Below, one piece after another: positions 4,135-12,890 of a stretch of 64,000 nt of DNA (position 1 is the first letter of the stretch; each line of letters opens with the position of its first letter). The notes below the pieces were generated by a model. It saw only the letters and a list, made by a program, of their open reading frames with translations, was not told the origin of the DNA and did no database searches. The DNA comes from Calothrix sp. 336/3 (GTDB taxonomy: Bacteria; Cyanobacteriota; Cyanobacteriia; Cyanobacteriales; Nostocaceae), in assembly GCF_000734895.2 (NCBI RefSeq), contig NZ_CP011382.1, positions 2,086,700 to 2,150,699 on the forward strand, given 5' to 3'. The translations under genes were made by a program, and so were the position numbers.

Positions 4135-4218
4135 ATGTCAATATGTGTGCATCTGCGGATTTGGAAACTGCACAAGCCCATATTTAGTAAATATTTGAAA
4201 ATTAGAGGGGTTTTGAAT

Positions 4219-4539
4219 GTGCAAAATTCTCCCAAGAAAACCGCATCATATCCACAATATCTATTGGTGAATAAGCAAATTGCAGCAAAAATGACTGGCT
4301 TATCTGCGGAAACCTTAAAAAGATATAGATTGGGAGGACTACTGCAAAAAGATATTCACTGGGTTGCTATAAATTCCAGGGTAGTTCGCTATAATATTGC
4401 CCTGGTTCTTGATTGGCTATAAAACAAAGATAGTAATCCCCAGGGACACATCAATGCGATTGAACGCTATTTGGAATCTCTTCCTTCTGGATGGAAAAAG
4501 CCCCGGATAAGAAGGTTATCGAATCCTAGCGAACCATGA
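4219..4539 (+). pseudogene. Excisionase-like small DNA-binding protein with an in-frame premature stop
   Basis: The frame is open from 4135, but a GTG at 4219 preceded by AGAGGGG is the better start. The core is LVNKQIAAKMTGLSAETLKRYRLGGLL followed by HWVAINSRVVRYN and DWL, a MerR/excisionase-like helix-turn-helix. It is a paralog of the gene at 4956. A TAA at 4420-4422 follows DWL, yet the same frame continues for 38 more codons to TGA at 4537-4539 (NKDSNPQGHINAIERYLES...). That continuation matches the paralog (NRHDPIAHHRAIALYH) after its own DWL, so the stop truncates an ancestral longer protein. The helix-turn-helix remains intact, and the short form might still bind DNA. Confidence 0.6.
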
Positions 4540-4955: not shown

Positions 4956-5219
4956 ATGTTTAATTTTGCTAGTAAACATCTGGCTTCTCGGTGCTTAAAC
5001 CTGAGCCATTCAACGCTCAAAAAATATCGACTCAATGGTACGTGGATTGAAGGAACCCATTGGGTCAAGGTCAATAATCGTTGTATTTTATACAATCTCG
5101 ATTTGATTCAGGATTGGTTGCACAATCGTCACGATCCAATTGCTCACCATCGAGCGATCGCTTTGTATCATGCAAATCTAAAAAGTAATCAAAAACGCGA
5201 CAACCGGATTGTGACTTAA
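4956..5219 (+). CDS. Excisionase-like small DNA-binding protein
   Basis: The product is 87 residues. Its N-terminal half (LASRCLNLSHSTLKKYRLNG) is a helix-turn-helix of the MerR/excisionase type, followed by a wing-like segment (GTHWVKVNNRCILYNLDLIQDWL) and a basic tail. It shares the TLKxYRLxGxxxxxxHWVxxNxRxxxYNxxLxxDWL pattern with the truncated paralog at 4219. Such small proteins act as recombination directionality factors or transcriptional regulators in integrative elements. The nearby tyrosine recombinase (11956-12890) and attachment-like site make an excisionase role attractive, though this is inference. No partner gene is coupled to it. Confidence 0.6.
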   Translation: MFNFASKHLASRCLNLSHSTLKKYRLNGTWIEGTHWVKVNNRCILYNLDLIQDWLHNRHDPIAHHRAIALYHANLKSNQKRDNRIVT

Positions 5220-5535: not shown

Positions 5536-5811
5536 TGCGATCGCTCTTAAATAATCATGCTTCTACAAATTAACTACAAATTAAACAATGGCAGTTGAAT
5601 TATCTGGGATTCCCTACATTATCGAGATTTGAGAGCGAAATTCCTAACAATCTAATGCGGCGGGTGAACGGAGTCGATGCGTCGCGACTAAAATCATTGC
5701 CAGATAAGCACTTCAAGAGTTCTGTCAGGCAGCCAGGATGGCTATTCATGCTGTCATATAACAGTCATAATTAATAAGCCCACTTGTAGGGGTAGTTTCT
5801 TGGCAAGTACT
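5536..5811. other. Non-coding gap upstream of the phosphatase fragment
   Basis: About 275 bases with no convincing ORF. An imperfect dyad (AGCCAGGATGGCT) occurs near 5732, but it has no T-tract and I do not call it a terminator. Confidence 0.35.
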
Positions 5812-6234
5812 ATGGCACTCAATACAGTCAAAACTACATTCGGCTTCCTAGCAACACTTTTGCGAAAAGTCGGCATTCTTCGTTGGGATAGTCAATTCCT
5901 CGAACACATCTACAACTACGTCCCAATTTCTGAAATGGTCAGCACTTCCGGTCAACCATCGGAAGCAGATTTACGGTTAATCAAGAACGCTGGATTCCGA
6001 ACGATCGTGAATTTGGCTCCCCACAATGCGGAGAACTCACTTCCTGACGAGCAGCAGTCTGTTGACAACCTGGGACTGGGGTACATTCACATCCCTGTAG
6101 ATTTTAAGAATCCGACAGATGCTGATTTTGAGAAGTTCGTCGAAGTGATGCAGGGTTTAGACGGTAGCAAAGTTTGGGTTCATTGCGCGGCGAATATGCG
6201 AGTTTCCGCATTCATATATCGATATGTGACTTGA
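5812..6234 (+). pseudogene. DSP-like protein phosphatase, 3' end lost at a transposon end
   Basis: Translation from ATG 5812 gives a DUF442/DSP-like phosphatase: VSTSGQPSEADLRLIKNAGFRTIVNLAP at the front, then the P-loop HCAANMRVS. In this family Cys is the nucleophile and Arg binds phosphate. Both are present, but the reading frame leaves native sequence at 6224, just after the P-loop (AFIYRY), and ends inside the Tn7-like element after V-T. The helices normally following the P-loop are missing, so the protein is probably inactive or unstable. The missing 3' part does not appear on the far side of the transposon. Confidence 0.75.
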
Positions 6235-6300
6235 ACCACATGTTGGCAGTAAGTGCCACGAAGTGCTTCCAGTAGGGCAGTGCCATCAAGTGCTTCCATA
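6225..6300 (+). repeat. Left end of the Tn7-like element with TnsB-site-like repeats
   Basis: The terminal TGTGACTTGAACC is followed by two copies of an AGTGCCA...AAGTGCTTCC motif, at about 6251-6272 (AGTGCCACGAAGTGCTTCCA) and 6280-6299 (AGTGCCATCAAGTGCTTCC). Arrays of about 20-bp sites near the ends are where TnsB binds in Tn7-like elements. Confidence 0.75.
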
Positions 6301-6338
6301 AAAAAAGCAAAGTATAAAAGTAGCAAAGACCTTAAATA

Positions 6339-7565
6339 TTATACATGAGGTTTCGATGATTTTGGCTTGTATAATTTATAGCGAGTAGATATCTCATGGC
6401 ATAAATCAGGAAAGTATTTGTACAAATCTCTTGAATCATAGCCAATTTGAAGCGCAAGCTCTTTTAACGACTGAGGTGGAAAGGATTCTTGATGCTGTTC
6501 CAAAAATTCCTGTACCATTTGTGCATCAAAGGGACGATTAGTTTTAAAGTATTGTTCGGATAATGGTAATTCCTTTAAATATATAGGAGCATCTAATTTT
6601 AGCTGACCTAAATAAATGTCAATTAAAGGGATAGATAGTCGATAGCAAACACGTAATAATTTATCGAGTTGAGGAAGTGCATTACCAACACGCCAATCCC
6701 TGGGAACAGTTGAACTTAAAAACATTTCTTGTGCAAAGGCTTTAGCATTTCCTTTGGTTAAAACTTCAATACACTTATCGATAGCAATAGCAACAAATTC
6801 TCGTTTGGGAATTTCAATCAAATAAGGAGTATTTGCGATTAATAAACCAACTTGTTGTGCAATAAATGAGTGCCATTCGATATCTTGTCTATTCACATTG
6901 TACAATTCAATAGTTGAACAACTGCTGCCTAACCAATAATGACATCTACAGCAAAAGCCATTTTTAGTGTTCCAAGCTAATAGATAAATATGCTGCCCGC
7001 AATTTGGACAGTAATTCATCAAGGGATATTTGTGTATAGGGCAAATTTTCACTGCGGACACGCACCAAATTAATGGTTCATAAAGCATTATTCCTTTCTG
7101 GCTAGATTCTGAATAACATAGTGGACACCAAGCTTTATATTTACGTAATAAATTCCGAGTTGATAAAACATTCTGCCAATGAATTAGGGTGAGATATTTT
7201 AAATTTGGTTGTTGAGTCAGTTTCTGTAAAACTAACACAGGTTCAAGTGCCATAGTTCCAGTCCCATTCCATGCACCTGTTTGACTAAAAAAGGCGTGGA
7301 AAAATAGATTAGATAAGTGATTAGAGTTTTTGACCGGATAACGACTAATCGTTGGAGCTAATTCTTGAGCTAGTAAAACTCCTGTTGGTACTCGGTGAAT
7401 TGCAGCTAAACGTGTTACATAACTGGTAAAACTTTCAGTTAGTGGTGTGCCTAATAATAATGGTTGTAATGGATATAAATGACTGCGTTTTGGTAGGTTT
7501 AATTGCTGAGTAAAATCCGGCGATTGGAAATTGAAATTATCAGAGAGCATTTCCACCACCTCCAA
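6339..7565 (-). CDS. tniQ: TniQ/TnsD-family target-selection protein
   Basis: The product is 408 residues. The N-terminal region (PLLLGTPLTESFTSYVTRLAAIHRVPTG) is the TniQ signature. Several Cys/His pairs follow (WCPLCY, ICPIHKYPLMNYCPNCGQ, FCCRCHYWLG) that would bind zinc, then a helical C-terminal half with a helix-turn-helix-like end (SLKELALQIGYDSRDLYKYF). TniQ/TnsD proteins choose the insertion site and recruit TnsC. This one is much longer than the TniQ of type V-K CRISPR-associated transposons and nearer to TnsD-like forms, so it probably reads DNA directly. It overlaps the end of tnsC by 26 nt; an internal ATG at 7550 would reduce this overlap. It is the last gene of the minus-strand transposition operon. 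Confidence 0.85.
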   Translation of the reverse strand: MEVVEMLSDNFNFQSPDFTQQLNLPKRSHLYPLQPLLLGTPLTESFTSYVTRLAAIHRVPTGVLLAQELAPTISRYPVKNSNHLSNLFFHAFFSQTGAWNGTGTMALEPVLVLQKLTQQPNLKYLTLIHWQNVLSTRNLLRKYKAWCPLCYSESSQKGIMLYEPLIWCVSAVKICPIHKYPLMNYCPNCGQHIYLLAWNTKNGFCCRCHYWLGSSCSTIELYNVNRQDIEWHSFIAQQVGLLIANTPYLIEIPKREFVAIAIDKCIEVLTKGNAKAFAQEMFLSSTVPRDWRVGNALPQLDKLLRVCYRLSIPLIDIYLGQLKLDAPIYLKELPLSEQYFKTNRPFDAQMVQEFLEQHQESFPPQSLKELALQIGYDSRDLYKYFPDLCHEISTRYKLYKPKSSKPHV

Positions 7566-8736
7566 CGATATCCCGATTTATTTTTCGTTCCCCAGGACGG
7601 CGTTTCTTTCGATTGTTTTTGGTTTCTGCACTTGTAGATAAATTGTGATGGCTTGATGTATCCCGAACAGATATATTTTGGTTATCACGAACTACTAAGC
7701 CTAAAGATGAACGAAGTTTTTCTACTTGATTTTCCCCAGATGATAAAATATTCTCACCCTCAATTGCTTCGGTTAACATTCGCACAGATTTAGAGACAGC
7801 AGGTGCATAAGCTTGTAAATGCTTGTAACTTAAACAATTTGATGATTCAGACAAAGCTTTTCTGAGTGACTGTGTGAGCCAATCTTTAACTATTCCCACA
7901 CAGCCAATGCTACGCTCATAAAAGTAATCCCAGTGTTTTTCTAAATCAGGAGTTTCAGGTAAAGGCATTGCAAAGGAGAAACTTTTTAATACCCTTTGAA
8001 AATCTTTGATATCTTCTGGATTCTCACTTTGATAACGAGGAAAATGTATATCTATACTTCTGCGACTAAGCTGACCGCTTAAATTTCTTAATTGTAATAA
8101 TTCATATGTACCAAATAACCCGTGTCTTGTTTGAGTAAAACTAGCCATTGATTGAATTGCATCCATTTGGTCTTGTTGTTTGTGACCGGATGTAATTTTG
8201 GCAAAACGTTGTGCTTCGTCAACTAAAAAAACTTTTAATCTTCTTTGCTGAAAAATATGTTCGACATCTGCTCTTAAATCTACCAAATTTGGCTTAACTT
8301 TTACTGTTTTTTGCTCGCCACCATTCCCATACACTCGATGACTACCCGTTCTAGTTTTATAATCAGCAAATGGTTCGCTTAAAGCAATTAAAACACTTTT
8401 ATAGTAAACTTTCCAATCAAAAGAACCTGTATCTGGAGAACGTGCTTCGACACCAGCTATTGGAAGAAATGACAAATCCTGTATCATTAAAGCTTGATTT
8501 TGCTCAAAGATAATTTTCATGACTTGAGCCATTAGAGTTGTTTTCCCAACCCCAGTTGGACCGAATAGAAAAATTAATGACGCACCTCCAGGATTATTTA
8601 TTGCATCTAAAAATTCTTCATAGACTTGTTTTAGAAGTCTATGTACAACAGTAAAATTGATAAAATAATTAATTTTTTCATTATCTGATGCGGTGAGTAT
8701 TTCTTGGGAAATATCTGAGGTAGAATGCATTACCAA
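7540..8736 (-). CDS. tnsC: TnsC-like AAA+ ATPase, transposition regulator
   Basis: The product is 398 residues. It has a Walker A (GPTGVGKT, residues 59-66) and a Walker B (VFLVDEAQRF, Asp173-Glu174) in a TnsC/TniB-type AAA+ domain. A long C-terminal extension is basic (KNNRKKRRPGERK). TnsC oligomers on target DNA link the target selector TniQ to the transposase and confer target immunity. The start overlaps the tnsAB stop by 7 nt and the end overlaps tniQ, indicating coupled translation. The length is larger than the minimal TnsC of type V-K systems and closer to other Tn7-like TnsC proteins. Confidence 0.88.
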   Translation of the reverse strand: MVMHSTSDISQEILTASDNEKINYFINFTVVHRLLKQVYEEFLDAINNPGGASLIFLFGPTGVGKTTLMAQVMKIIFEQNQALMIQDLSFLPIAGVEARSPDTGSFDWKVYYKSVLIALSEPFADYKTRTGSHRVYGNGGEQKTVKVKPNLVDLRADVEHIFQQRRLKVFLVDEAQRFAKITSGHKQQDQMDAIQSMASFTQTRHGLFGTYELLQLRNLSGQLSRRSIDIHFPRYQSENPEDIKDFQRVLKSFSFAMPLPETPDLEKHWDYFYERSIGCVGIVKDWLTQSLRKALSESSNCLSYKHLQAYAPAVSKSVRMLTEAIEGENILSSGENQVEKLRSSLGLVVRDNQNISVRDTSSHHNLSTSAETKNNRKKRRPGERKINRDIVGGGGNAL

Positions 8737-11414
8737 AACTCCTCGTATGGTTTAATATCTTCTGCAATCAATTCCTTCTCTTCTGGCTCTTGAATTGGTA
8801 ATTCCAGCATCTCAATCATAGTTGTTTGTATAACTGGAGTTTGATTGTTTGGAGTTGTCGCATATATTTCTTTTGCTTCGATATCCTGCATTCTTTGCAG
8901 TAAGATTACCTCTTGTTGTTCTGACTTATTCAAAAACTCAGCTAAACTCGATGCTGTAACGACAAATTGTCTATTTGCACAACTATGACGCTGGCGTATT
9001 TCCTCAGATGCAATTCTAATTTCCCTTTCTGAATGTCCAACTAAACTACTGTAATGCTGTGAAATACAAGTTACCCATTGATTGTCAACATAAGCATAAG
9101 CAACTCCCATATCATAAGGGTCGTAGCGCACAGGTACTTGAGTTTTTTCTATTTCTGGATGGCGAAAAATATTGTGCCAATAATAAATATTATTAATCTT
9201 AATTCCATTATTAGGGATTACTTTTGCAGTTCCCTTTGGCGTTGTTGGTAAAGTAAATATTTTAAAATTGCCATCATATTTAATTACTTTATGGCTGCGT
9301 AATCCCGTTCTTAAAAATCCATCCTCAAACATTGAGCGAGGGCTTTGGCTTAGTGCTGGATGTTCTTTATTGTCGTAAAACTCATAAGCCCAATCATATA
9401 GGTTTTGGTATAAACTACCTAGTGTCCAAATTGCTAAGTTTTTTGGATTTACACTTTTAGTTACACCTCTAGGGTTACGAGTAATTTGTGTATTTCCTTG
9501 AAGGTTATGGATTAGCATTGTGTTTGCTGTACCAAAAATCCTTTCACATACACTCCCAAACCTTGGTTTTGCTTGTGGGCGAGTTTTTTTAGTACAAGTA
9601 TAGGCTGCGAGCAATGTTTCAAAATAGATACTTTCAAATTCTTTTCCACCATCTACTACTAAAGTGGATGGGAAACGTCCATAGCGACGGACGCATTCCC
9701 TCATCACCATCATGCAACTGCGGTAAGAAGGTGGGTCAAATGTTAAATAAATTGCTAATATTCTTCTGGAGTAAGCATCTATCAAAAATGTTAGCCAAGG
9801 ACGACCTAGATTGACTTTTGAGTAAGAGCTTACTAGTTCAATGTCCAATTCTGTATGGTCTATATGGCAAATTTCAAATGGTCTATCACCGTGCCTTGGC
9901 GTTGTTAGCTCTAGTTCCCAATAAAAACATTCATTTTTATAGGCTATGCGTTTCCCTTGTCTATGTAATTTTGTTTCAAACTGTGGTATTTTTTTCAAGT
10001 TTTTTAAAAATGTTTTATAGCTTGGAGGTATCAATCCTTTATCAATACAGGTTTGGCGTAAACTACAATATGTTGCATATTTACCTTTCTGCTTGACATT
10101 CAGATAATCATTTTCGATAAACTCATCAATTAGTTTTTGTGTTTGAACTGGTAGTTTTCCTTGGTTGGCTGTTTGATTTTTGTGCTTTGGCAATAATCCT
10201 AAATATCCACAACCGTATTGCTTATCCGCCTCAAGCCACTTTCTTACCCATCGGTAGAATGTTCTTCTTGGTACTTCTGTAAAATCTGCTTTTTCACCTT
10301 GTAAATAACCAGATATAATTGAATAACGCCTCGACGCTTCTATACAATCTTCAACTGATGAACATTTGAAAAATTCTTGTATATCTTGAGAATTTTGAGT
10401 ATTACTGATTGCTTGAAACTTATCTTGCTCTATTAACCTTCTCCATTCCTGATTTGGTAATGAGATTATTTGTGAAGATTCTGACAGTAATGAGATACTT
10501 TTTTCTCCTACATTTATTACATGCCATATCTGTCCATCCCATTTTCCAATTGCTCCAACATGACTTAGGTCTAGAAATTTTCTTGGACTCCAAGCTATAT
10601 CATTTCTTGATATATCTAGTGCTTCAGCCGTTTCTTTATTTACAAATACACTAATTCTTTCTAACTCTGTACTCAGGGAAAATGAATCTAAATCAACATA
10701 TACCGTCTGGTCTGCAATTAATTTGTATATGTAGTCTGGATTAATACCTTTTTCTAATAATTCTGATAATTTTATTCCTGGAAATATGGAAATTATTTTG
10801 ATTATTTTTACTATATCTTCTCTTGGTACTTCGAGATTAATCGATAAATAGTCAGATAAAAAATAGATATTTCTTTGCTTCTTCCAATTTATTTCTTTGT
10901 CGGAGCGAACAACATAATATAACCCTAAATTTAAAGCAAACTCCTCTCCGGGGGGACATCGCCATTTTCCATTACTATCTAATTGATAGCGATTCGGCAT
11001 TTTTGATGCTAAAGCTGATAGCTCTGATGCTGTTTTACATTCTTCCCAACCTGCACTTTTACTCCTAATTACAAAAAAGTCTGCTGTATGCAGTACTCCT
11101 ATTCGTCGTCCATTTAAACAAGTGTATTGCAACTTTATTTTTGGTGGCTGGTCGTAATATTCCAATACATCTGGGTCATATTCCATCTCATATATTCGCG
11201 CTAGCTCATTGTGATGACTCTCAAATTGAATCACCACACCCATTTTTTTGCTTGGATATCGACCGACTACGTTTCCAGCATTTCCCCTCACCCGTCTTGA
11301 TGGTGGAGAACTACGTATCGACTGAATTATTGTATACTGCGCTGATGATAAATCGAGTGATGCAGACCACTCTTCTAACTCAGATTCTGTCAGCATTGCT
11401 ACTCCGGTACGCAA
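8730..11414 (-). CDS. tnsAB: TnsA-TnsB fusion transposase
   Basis: The product is 894 residues. The N-terminal 200 residues resemble the TnsA endonuclease: Glu65 or Glu70 in FESHHNELARIYEMEYDP, Asp112 in HTADFFV and Glu125-Cys-Lys127 in WEECK form a restriction-enzyme-like E-D-ExK site. The rest is TnsB, a DDE transposase with helix-turn-helix domains at about 360-400. Its catalytic residues are Asp519 (CHIDHTEL), Asp588 (LVVDGG) and Glu624 (SVCERIFG). A TnsA plus TnsB pair allows both strands to be cut and thus cut-and-paste movement; fused TnsAB proteins are known from some cyanobacterial Tn7-like elements. All catalytic residues are visible, so the enzyme may be active. It heads the minus-strand operon, and its promoter should lie in the non-coding right-end segment. 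Confidence 0.88.
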   Translation of the reverse strand: MRTGVAMLTESELEEWSASLDLSSAQYTIIQSIRSSPPSRRVRGNAGNVVGRYPSKKMGVVIQFESHHNELARIYEMEYDPDVLEYYDQPPKIKLQYTCLNGRRIGVLHTADFFVIRSKSAGWEECKTASELSALASKMPNRYQLDSNGKWRCPPGEEFALNLGLYYVVRSDKEINWKKQRNIYFLSDYLSINLEVPREDIVKIIKIISIFPGIKLSELLEKGINPDYIYKLIADQTVYVDLDSFSLSTELERISVFVNKETAEALDISRNDIAWSPRKFLDLSHVGAIGKWDGQIWHVINVGEKSISLLSESSQIISLPNQEWRRLIEQDKFQAISNTQNSQDIQEFFKCSSVEDCIEASRRYSIISGYLQGEKADFTEVPRRTFYRWVRKWLEADKQYGCGYLGLLPKHKNQTANQGKLPVQTQKLIDEFIENDYLNVKQKGKYATYCSLRQTCIDKGLIPPSYKTFLKNLKKIPQFETKLHRQGKRIAYKNECFYWELELTTPRHGDRPFEICHIDHTELDIELVSSYSKVNLGRPWLTFLIDAYSRRILAIYLTFDPPSYRSCMMVMRECVRRYGRFPSTLVVDGGKEFESIYFETLLAAYTCTKKTRPQAKPRFGSVCERIFGTANTMLIHNLQGNTQITRNPRGVTKSVNPKNLAIWTLGSLYQNLYDWAYEFYDNKEHPALSQSPRSMFEDGFLRTGLRSHKVIKYDGNFKIFTLPTTPKGTAKVIPNNGIKINNIYYWHNIFRHPEIEKTQVPVRYDPYDMGVAYAYVDNQWVTCISQHYSSLVGHSEREIRIASEEIRQRHSCANRQFVVTASSLAEFLNKSEQQEVILLQRMQDIEAKEIYATTPNNQTPVIQTTMIEMLELPIQEPEEKELIAEDIKPYEEFW

Positions 11415-11955
11415 TGTTTACTTCATTGCATACTTCTATTCAATCTAAATTTTTTGCTTTCAAAATTTAAGAACTATGAATTTTTTTCTACTTAGTGCCA
11501 CGAAGTGCTTCCACAAAATCCGGCTTATAATTGCTCAAGCTATTGTCTGGACTATTATTCAGCGTTTTTAAATACAGTGTTATTTTATACTATATTGTCT
11601 ATTAAATTTTACATTTTCTCACGATTTCGTACTATCAAATAGTAGTTCAAAAGTTCCTATGTACTAGCTTTTATGTCATTTTTACGTCGTTTTTGAGAAT
11701 GCAATCAAATCTAATTGTCTAAATATCCTATGACTATTCGCCCTGAAACCATCTCTATACAAAGGTTTCATCTGTTTGTCTGTCTTTTACATACTTTGTG
11801 CCATTTTAGTCGTCCTATTTTTATACTTTGTGCCATCTACTGCTTCCATTATTCTCAGAATCGCCTCTTTCGCGCAACGTAATCATCAGCTTTTCAAGCT
11901 TTTTTAGTGCCATAAAGTGCTTCCACTTTAGTGCCATTACCTGGGTAAAGTGACA
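11415..11955. repeat. Right end of the Tn7-like element, non-coding, with repeated motifs
   Basis: This 540-bp AT-rich segment has no gene. It carries AGTGCCACGAAGTGCTTCCA at about 11496-11515, degenerate copies at about 11797-11815 (TTTGTGCCATTTTAGTCGTCC) and 11831-11850 (TTTGTGCCATCTACTGCTTCC), and AGTGCCATAAAGTGCTTCCA at about 11907-11926. A half copy (AGTGCCATTACC) follows before the terminal ACA at 11953-11955. The full motifs read in the same direction on the plus strand as those at the left end. The tnsAB promoter should also lie here. Confidence 0.7.
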
Positions 11956-12890
11956 TTATCTTCCTTTGAAGGAAAGACTTTATCTTCGTCATCAACATCA
12001 GCAGGTTTTATCGAGCGTAATAATTCTGCCAAACGGGGATTAACGGGAAAACTCCGCTTCTTCTGAGTCTTCAAACCCTTCTTGCAAATCAATCCCCTCT
12101 CCGATACAACCACCGCTTGCTCGAATCGAATAAAGCGGAAATCCTTGGAAATATACTTCCACTGCAAAGCAACAGCCTCGGATGGTCTACAACCCGTCAG
12201 AAACAGAAACTCAATTAATGGTGTGTAATGCCTGTAATGACGGCTTTGCTTGAATGCTTCGATAATTTTGTCCCGCTCCTCTTGGGTGAATGCATTAATA
12301 TCTGTATCTTCCTTCTCACCCTTGGGAATCTTGATATCCCCTGCCATATCCTCGAATGGATTTTTCTCGATCGAACCAGATTTGACAGCCCAATCACAGC
12401 AAGCCGATATTTGGGTCAAAAGTCGCTTGCAGGTATTCGGGGTTTTATTCGCAATCAACCAATCCCGAATTGCGATCGCATCCCCCACTGTTTTTACAGG
12501 TAATTCGATTTCAATACAACGAGTCACCCGCTTTACATCCTTAGCCAAGGTGCTGGGGGACAAACTACTGCGCTTAAATTCGATGTAACTTTCCCATAAA
12601 TCGATAAGGGAAACAGGAGCAATTGGTGAAATTGATGGTGTAACCTTAGCCAGCAAGCCTTCCGGCTTATATTTGGCTAAAGTTGGGTCGAAATTCCCCG
12701 ACATAATATCTAGCTCGATTTGCCTAGCTTTCATTTCCGCCACCTTGCGGTTGGCAACGCTATCGGTAAAACCTGTCGAGAGGTAATAGCGTTTCCCAGC
12801 AAAGCGAAAAACCAGTTGCAGACGGTCATTGGAGGTTTTAACTTGAACCGTCCCTTTCGAGGATTTGGATTTAGGGGATTGCTTCGCCAT
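11937..12890 (-). pseudogene. Tyrosine recombinase (integrase), C-terminus lost at the transposon end
   Basis: The reading frame gives 317 residues. An N-terminal arm-binding domain of the cyanobacterial integrase type (FAGKRYYLSTGFTDSVANRKVAEMKA) is followed by a SAM-like core-binding domain (SLIDLWESYIEFKRSSLSPSTLAKDVKR) and the start of the catalytic domain with its first Arg (LTGCRPSEAVALQW). Native sequence stops at 11956, after KVFPSKEDN; the last codons come from the transposon end. The HxxR box, the second His and the nucleophile Tyr are therefore absent, so the enzyme cannot carry out strand exchange. Its start lies about 330 bp from the attachment-like site, the usual neighbourhood for an integrase. 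Confidence 0.85.

Follow-up and report, generated by a model that had tools for sequence, protein, structure and literature searches.

Tn7-like elements home to glmS, transfer RNA (tRNA) genes, comM or parE, or follow RNA from clustered regularly interspaced short palindromic repeats (CRISPR). Reviews and surveys name targets at glmS, tRNA genes, comM, parE and res sites, as well as RNA-guided targeting. We analyzed a window of 64,000 nucleotides from the cyanobacterium Calothrix sp. 336/3 (contig NZ_CP011382.1, positions 2,086,700 to 2,150,699), in which a complete, 5,731-bp Tn7-like element occupies positions 6225–11955 on the minus strand, with three genes only and no cargo. Our results strongly favor a cut-and-paste element for which CRISPR repeats serve as the attachment site, read by its single TniQ/TnsD-type protein. 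A role of CRISPR arrays as attachment sites is not mentioned in the covered portions of the reviews and surveys of Tn7-like elements, a coverage that excludes Hsieh and Peters 2023 (10.1093/nar/gkac1216), and the array-targeting clade described here is provisionally considered new.

Several described systems resemble this element in part. PmcCAST (Tn7744), a type I-B2 CRISPR-associated transposon (CAST) of the Peltigera membranacea cyanobiont from which the entries 9bw1 and 8v32 derive, also possesses a fused TnsAB, a TnsC and a TnsD-type selector, and its TnsD-side end is likewise fixed, about 52 bp from a GGAT-like motif in the same orientation. However, PmcCAST encodes Cascade and an additional, small TniQ, and its homing site is tRNA-Val, whereas the window element presents no cas genes and a single TniQ without an equivalent of the final ~60 residues of PmcCAST TnsD, and has CRISPR arrays as its target. 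The type I-D CASTs (CyCAST and McCAST) also have a fused TnsAB, but they carry type I-D cas genes and their TnsD homes to tRNA genes, with insertion 30–33 nt past the tRNA end (PMC10293859). Tn5469 of Tolypothrix (Fremyella) has been described as an untargeted element (PMC11406308) that, like the window element, is devoid of cargo and encodes a fused TnsAB-type transposase and a single TniQ. Its TniQ-type protein (Tolypothrix L074) is however larger and falls in another clade, and its TnsAB is only about 47% identical; the window element shares with the Tn5469 group neither the TniQ clade nor the lack of a fixed target. Finally, the TnsD of Tn7 at glmS and the res-site hunting of Tn5053 are other cases in which a protein selector recognises a DNA site and places the insertion a set distance away from it, and Tn5053 is an earlier example of a single TniQ directed at a type of site that is spread over many replicons (PMC11406308). 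These two elements differ by their sites, and Tn7 has separate TnsA and TnsB proteins plus TnsE.

Gene content and ends of the element

The following features define the element in the window:

6225..11955, minus strand: whole element, 5731 bp; bounds set by the identity of three copies with unrelated flanks
8730..11414, minus strand: tnsAB, fused TnsA endonuclease and TnsB DDE transposase, 894 residues; Pfam TnsA-N, rve and Mu-transpos_C, catalytic residues
7540..8736, minus strand: tnsC, AAA+ regulator, 398 residues; Pfam AAA_22 and TniB, Walker A/B
6339..7565, minus strand: tniQ, TniQ/TnsD-type target selector, 408 residues, two CxxC..CxxH/C zinc motifs; Pfam TniQ, match to 8v32
6225: TniQ-side end, TGTGACTTGAACC
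11955: TnsAB-side end, AAGTGACA
6252..6298 (6252-6271 and 6279-6298), no strand assigned: at the TniQ-side end, two 20-bp repeats of the TnsB binding-site type; repeat search
11494..11925 (about 11494-11513, 11829-11848 and 11906-11925), no strand assigned: TnsB-type repeats at the TnsAB-side end; repeat search and sequence inspection

Two more identical copies in the genome define the positions of the termini (TGTGACTTG...AAGTGACA), 6225 and 11955. The sequence-only reading had described a Tn7-like element with a fused TnsAB, head-to-tail tnsAB, tnsC and tniQ genes and nothing else on board; the overlapping head-to-tail open reading frames and the Pfam matches agree with this description. The catalytic residues of TnsA (E65, D112, E125/K127) and TnsB (D519, D588, E624) stand at the positions it had given, and the Walker A motif of TnsC is GPTGVGKT. 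The single large TniQ was confirmed to carry zinc motifs, with eight putative ligands (C147/C150/C175/H178 and C186/C189/C205/C208) that are invariant across the array-targeting clade. TnsAB matches the TnsAB of 9bw1 over its full length (E = 8e-285). TniQ matches the DNA-binding TnsD 8v32 over residues 23–400 (E = 2e-76), and its match to the small RNA-pathway TniQ 8fcu is much poorer (E = 2e-43; residues 21–266).

The element presents the catalytic domains of TnsA and TnsB, an AAA+ TnsC, a TniQ-domain protein, TGT...ACA ends, several TnsB sites and a 5-bp target-site duplication (found in copy 3 of this genome and in eight relatives; the window copy has none), and is a variant of Tn7-like transposons. 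It is not a CAST: its ends enclose only three genes, with neither cas effector genes nor a CRISPR array. No Rfam family, tRNA or CRISPR array was found anywhere in the 64-kb window, and the earlier statement that the element lacks CRISPR-Cas holds.

Insertion in CRISPR arrays at a fixed distance

The link of this element to CRISPR is the array as an attachment site, and it is seen outside the window. The genome contains three identical copies, two of them inside the spacers of CRISPR arrays, and the window holds the only one that is not in an array. Copy 3, which spans the junction of the circular contig, interrupts a spacer and is bordered by the 5-bp duplication GAAGA, in the order repeat CTTTACAAACTATTCCCCTTCACCGGGGACGGAAAC, GCTAGGTAACCCAAATTGAAGA, element, GAAGAACCCTTCATTT, repeat. 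Copy 1 is found in a spacer of a different array (repeat CTTTACAATCACATCTCCCCGAAAGGGGATGGAAAC) and presents no duplication. The arrays of these two repeat families (and of these two only) amount to ~20 repeats and roughly 1.5 kb of the 6.42 Mb genome. The two interrupted arrays share a leader-like flank, and a third, two-repeat remnant is located at C1:5769119. Simple exchange among the surviving copies was rejected as the cause of absent duplications, as the duplications of the three copies do not cross-match. A search limited to Cas1 found none in this genome (99.99% complete). The element may still be active today.

Relatives were sought in plasmids and cyanobacterial genomes, with 1,276 genome searches in total over overlapping sets. 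Members of the clade were found in Allocoleopsis franciscana PCC 7113 (G592) and in genomes G690, G725, G657, G646, G480, G541, G544 and G449. Allocoleopsis carries one copy on its chromosome, with a frameshifted TnsAB, and two copies on plasmid pMIC7113.03, where one of the arrays is located between type III cas genes. No clade member was detected at the strict cut-off in the 27 genomes of the G683 family, and a single-protein scan of genome contigs returned one distant match only. Among the 16 copies with readable flanks (G646, whose flanks could not be resolved, was left out), 12 are inserted in CRISPR arrays: two in this genome, two in Allocoleopsis, four in G480 and one each in G725, G541, G544 and G449. 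The window copy, the chromosomal copy of Allocoleopsis and the copies of G690 and G657 lie outside arrays. All 12 array insertions present junctions within spacers, never in a repeat, and a single orientation, in arrays whose repeats have many different sequences. The 5-bp duplication was observed in nine copies, six of these in arrays.

Each of the 12 array copies has its TniQ-side end turned toward the next repeat, 48–53 bp from the last base of that repeat (GAAAC), a figure that includes the 5-bp duplication. The distance is 51–53 bp (52.2 ± 0.7) in the subclade formed by the copies of this genome, G480, G541 and G544, despite repeats that differ in sequence and length (35–38 nt). On the other (TnsAB) side, the spacing to the preceding repeat ranges between 12 and 31 nt. 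Because the distance is constant on one side and variable on the other, the insertion is anchored to the 3' end of the TniQ-side repeat. By comparison with the right end of Tn7 at glmS, the TnsAB-side repeat was also considered as the recognised one; it was rejected based on these distances and on the side at which tRNA genes lie in sister elements. We propose to define a CRISPR-array-homing clade by insertion in a spacer with the TniQ-side end 48–53 bp from GAAAC: copies 1 and 3 of this genome and ten relatives present this arrangement, and the window copy is an exception.

We then derived a weight matrix from the array sites and scored the four non-array copies at 48–53 bp against random anchors. 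The motif was found at 49 bp in G690 (AAGGGGAAGGAAAC; p = 3.5e-4), at 50 bp in G657 (p = 7e-3), at 48 bp in the chromosomal copy of Allocoleopsis (p = 7.5e-3) and, most weakly, at 53 bp in the window copy (p = 0.019). The combined signal is p = 7e-7 (Fisher), and no match was found on the opposite side of these copies where it was scored. A motif at a fixed distance outside arrays speaks for a protein that would read DNA directly, and against RNA guidance and mere survival at harmless sites. The protein-only targeting that had been suggested from the window is supported by this motif.

These observations bear on three other explanations. The element might insert at random and simply survive in arrays. 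Arrays are dispensable and four copies do lie elsewhere, but the two repeat families of this genome offer only ~1.5 kb of 6.42 Mb, the 12 array insertions share one orientation and a fixed distance and never fall in a repeat, and the available flanks of 14 other TnsAB loci are free of arrays; we give this explanation, which the fixed distance contradicts, almost no credence. RNA-guided self-targeting would require that a host CRISPR effector be borrowed in trans and that CRISPR RNA from the array direct insertion into the array itself. The relatives of this machinery are CASTs, insertions are found in arrays, and the insertion site of type I CASTs lies some tens of bp away from the protospacer. 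However, the element has no cas genes, its TniQ resembles TnsD rather than the small RNA-pathway TniQ, and the distance on the upstream spacer side varies by ~20 bp whereas the distance to the downstream repeat end is fixed. Moreover, there is no array at the sites in G690, G657 and the Allocoleopsis chromosome, and yet these present the motif at the fixed distance. We consider RNA guidance very unlikely. Alternatively, TniQ could recognize a structure, such as the hairpin or cruciform of the repeat, and not the sequence of its 3' end. Most target repeats contain a palindrome, and TnsE of Tn7 is a structure-directed selector (PMC10293859). Nevertheless, the insertions remain tied to the GAAAC end where palindromes differ or are displaced (G725 and G449), the G690 site GGGGAAGGAAAC lies outside any array, and the tRNA-reading sisters keep the same distance to a sequence motif, which makes the reading of a structure improbable.

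Kinship with tRNA-reading TnsD proteins

We further analyzed the phylogeny of the selector and transposase, with trees rooted at the midpoint only. The TniQ proteins of the clade are monophyletic (bootstrap 100; Shimodaira-Hasegawa-like approximate likelihood ratio test, SH-aLRT, 99) and fall inside neither the RNA-pathway TniQ clade of CASTs nor the CAST TnsD clade that includes PmcCAST. The TnsAB proteins likewise form their own group (SH-aLRT 99) beside the PmcCAST lineage. The sequence-only reading had proposed a stripped-down candidate ancestor or relative of CRISPR-associated elements; we weighed such an ancestor with targeting unrelated to arrays. Although the fused TnsAB is about 51% identical to PmcCAST-type TnsAB and cas genes are absent (no cas operon belonging to the element was found), TnsAB and TniQ sit in clades of their own, the target is specialised, and nothing in the midpoint-rooted trees places the element below CASTs. 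We therefore regard this ancestry as highly unlikely.

No tRNA gene was found in the window or adjoining clade members. In contrast, nine sister elements with long flanks have, next to their TnsD-side end, a gene for tRNA-Val, -Ala, -Leu or -Thr with its 3' end toward the element, and the same four types of genes stand beside the TnsD-side end of most other homologous TnsD loci with available flanks. The T-arm motif GGATTCGAAC ends 50–55 bp from the element, mostly 52–53 bp, in the same orientation in 27 of 27 sisters, a count in which ambiguous element ends were resolved toward the expected distance and nine cases are clear by eye. The 30–33 nt past the tRNA end reported for CyCAST (PMC10293859) equals ~52 bp from the T-arm, in agreement with these distances. 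Since the sisters use four tRNA types at one T-arm distance, these loci (L150-L158 and other sisters) suggest that the T-arm is what related TnsD proteins read.

The flank profiles of the array group and the tRNA group, compared over 44 offsets, matched best at -1 bp; a column-wise information profile that does not allow for 1–3 bp of slippage is too blurred to reveal the motif alone. The T-arm motif GGATTCGAAC differs at two of ten positions from GGATTGAAAC, found in some repeats, and GGGGATGGAAAC is a further version of the repeat sequence. From these sequence comparisons, it is most likely that a T-arm-reading TnsD was retargeted to the CRISPR repeat with its geometry unchanged, and the direction of this change would be from tRNA to CRISPR.

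Under array homing by TniQ, this protein would bind the conserved 3' end of the repeat, with the core GGGATTGAAAC / GGGGATGGAAAC, TniQ itself presumably making the contact. PmcCAST TnsD is known to bend attachment-site DNA and to intercalate an arginine at a CC/GG step (PMC12585508). The repeat-bound TniQ would then recruit TnsC and TnsAB, as in the TnsABCD complex of PmcCAST, and TnsA and TnsB would cut the element out and join it in the neighbouring spacer, upstream of the recognised repeat. Repeat-like motifs elsewhere would be used occasionally. The selector would derive from TnsD proteins reading the T-arm, with orientation and distance kept while the recognised sequence drifted. Because plasmids as well as chromosomes carry arrays, homing and spread could both rely on a single selector.

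The window copy and further copies in relatives

Several points weigh against array homing by TniQ. Compared with PmcCAST TnsD, the protein is missing ~60 residues at its end, and its binding to repeats is a prediction. The count of 27 sisters depended in part on the expected distance, G646 is missing from the array counts, and part of the data on the clade comes from draft genomes. Six of the 12 array copies present no target-site duplication, which requires assuming later rearrangement. The window copy itself is atypical within the clade: its motif is weak, it has no 5-bp duplication (CGATA | TTATC), and the genes on both of its flanks are truncated, as listed below:

5800..6234, plus strand: phosphatase-like (PTP) gene, cut by the element; Pfam PTP-NADK, profile truncated
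11937..12890, minus strand: gene for an Arm-type tyrosine recombinase, interrupted by the element and without its C-terminal part; the Pfam Phage_integrase match stops at 101 of 172
6172..6185, minus strand: weak motif CAATGAACCCAAAC resembling the repeat, with its end 53 bp beyond the TniQ-side end; scored by weight matrix against random anchors (p = 0.019)

Given the truncation of both flanking genes and the absence of a duplication, the window copy has probably been rearranged, and CAATGAACCCAAAC is a possible degenerate recognition site. Small similar open reading frames (helix-turn-helix or excisionase-like, 'TLKRYRL/TLKKYRL') are found at 4135-4422 and 4956-5219, in the same region as the truncated Arm-type integrase, and the element may have landed in what is left of a different integrative element.

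G480 carries four identical, internally deleted non-autonomous copies of 3363 bp (L076, L077, L078 and L146), and G544 carries a non-autonomous copy of 2546 bp (L145). These copies have lost TnsB and part of TnsC, through deletions that are independent in the two genomes and that left TniQ intact (71–79% identical to the window TniQ); either the copies are mobilized in trans or TniQ serves some function by itself. In G657, the TnsAB-side end appears ~2 kb upstream of tnsAB (L149, about 825-2990; duplication ACTGT) with other coding sequence in between, perhaps a nested insertion sequence or a small cargo. In G449 (L147, about 6300-8000), an array of 22 repeats is flanked on one side by the TniQ-side end of one element and on the other by an apparent solo TnsAB-side end of a second one (TGTTACTTTACCC after a repeat and about 28 nt). 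The G541 copy (L075, C172) lies between two different CRISPR repeat families, without a duplication, and its flanks represent either two arrays fused by recombination between copies or a misassembly. The six array copies without duplication and the two different arrays on either side of the copy in G541 suggest that recombination between copies shortens or fuses arrays, with misassembly possible in draft genomes.

The CRISPR array appears here as a destination that would be read by a protein, and this TniQ would represent a natural DNA-binding selector for CRISPR repeats. It would also constitute a case of a Tn7 selector changing its target, from T-arm to repeat, with the distance unchanged, and the T-arm is suggested as the feature that lets related TnsD proteins use several tRNA genes. 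Insertion in arrays would be an unremarked route by which mobile elements break them up. More tentatively, and with less than even confidence, we suggest that immune memory may have become the safe harbour of this transposon lineage: a retargeted tRNA-reading TnsD, recognising the conserved repeat end, would provide both chromosomal homing and spread through array-bearing plasmids, and the interruption of arrays and recombination between copies would erode adaptive immunity.

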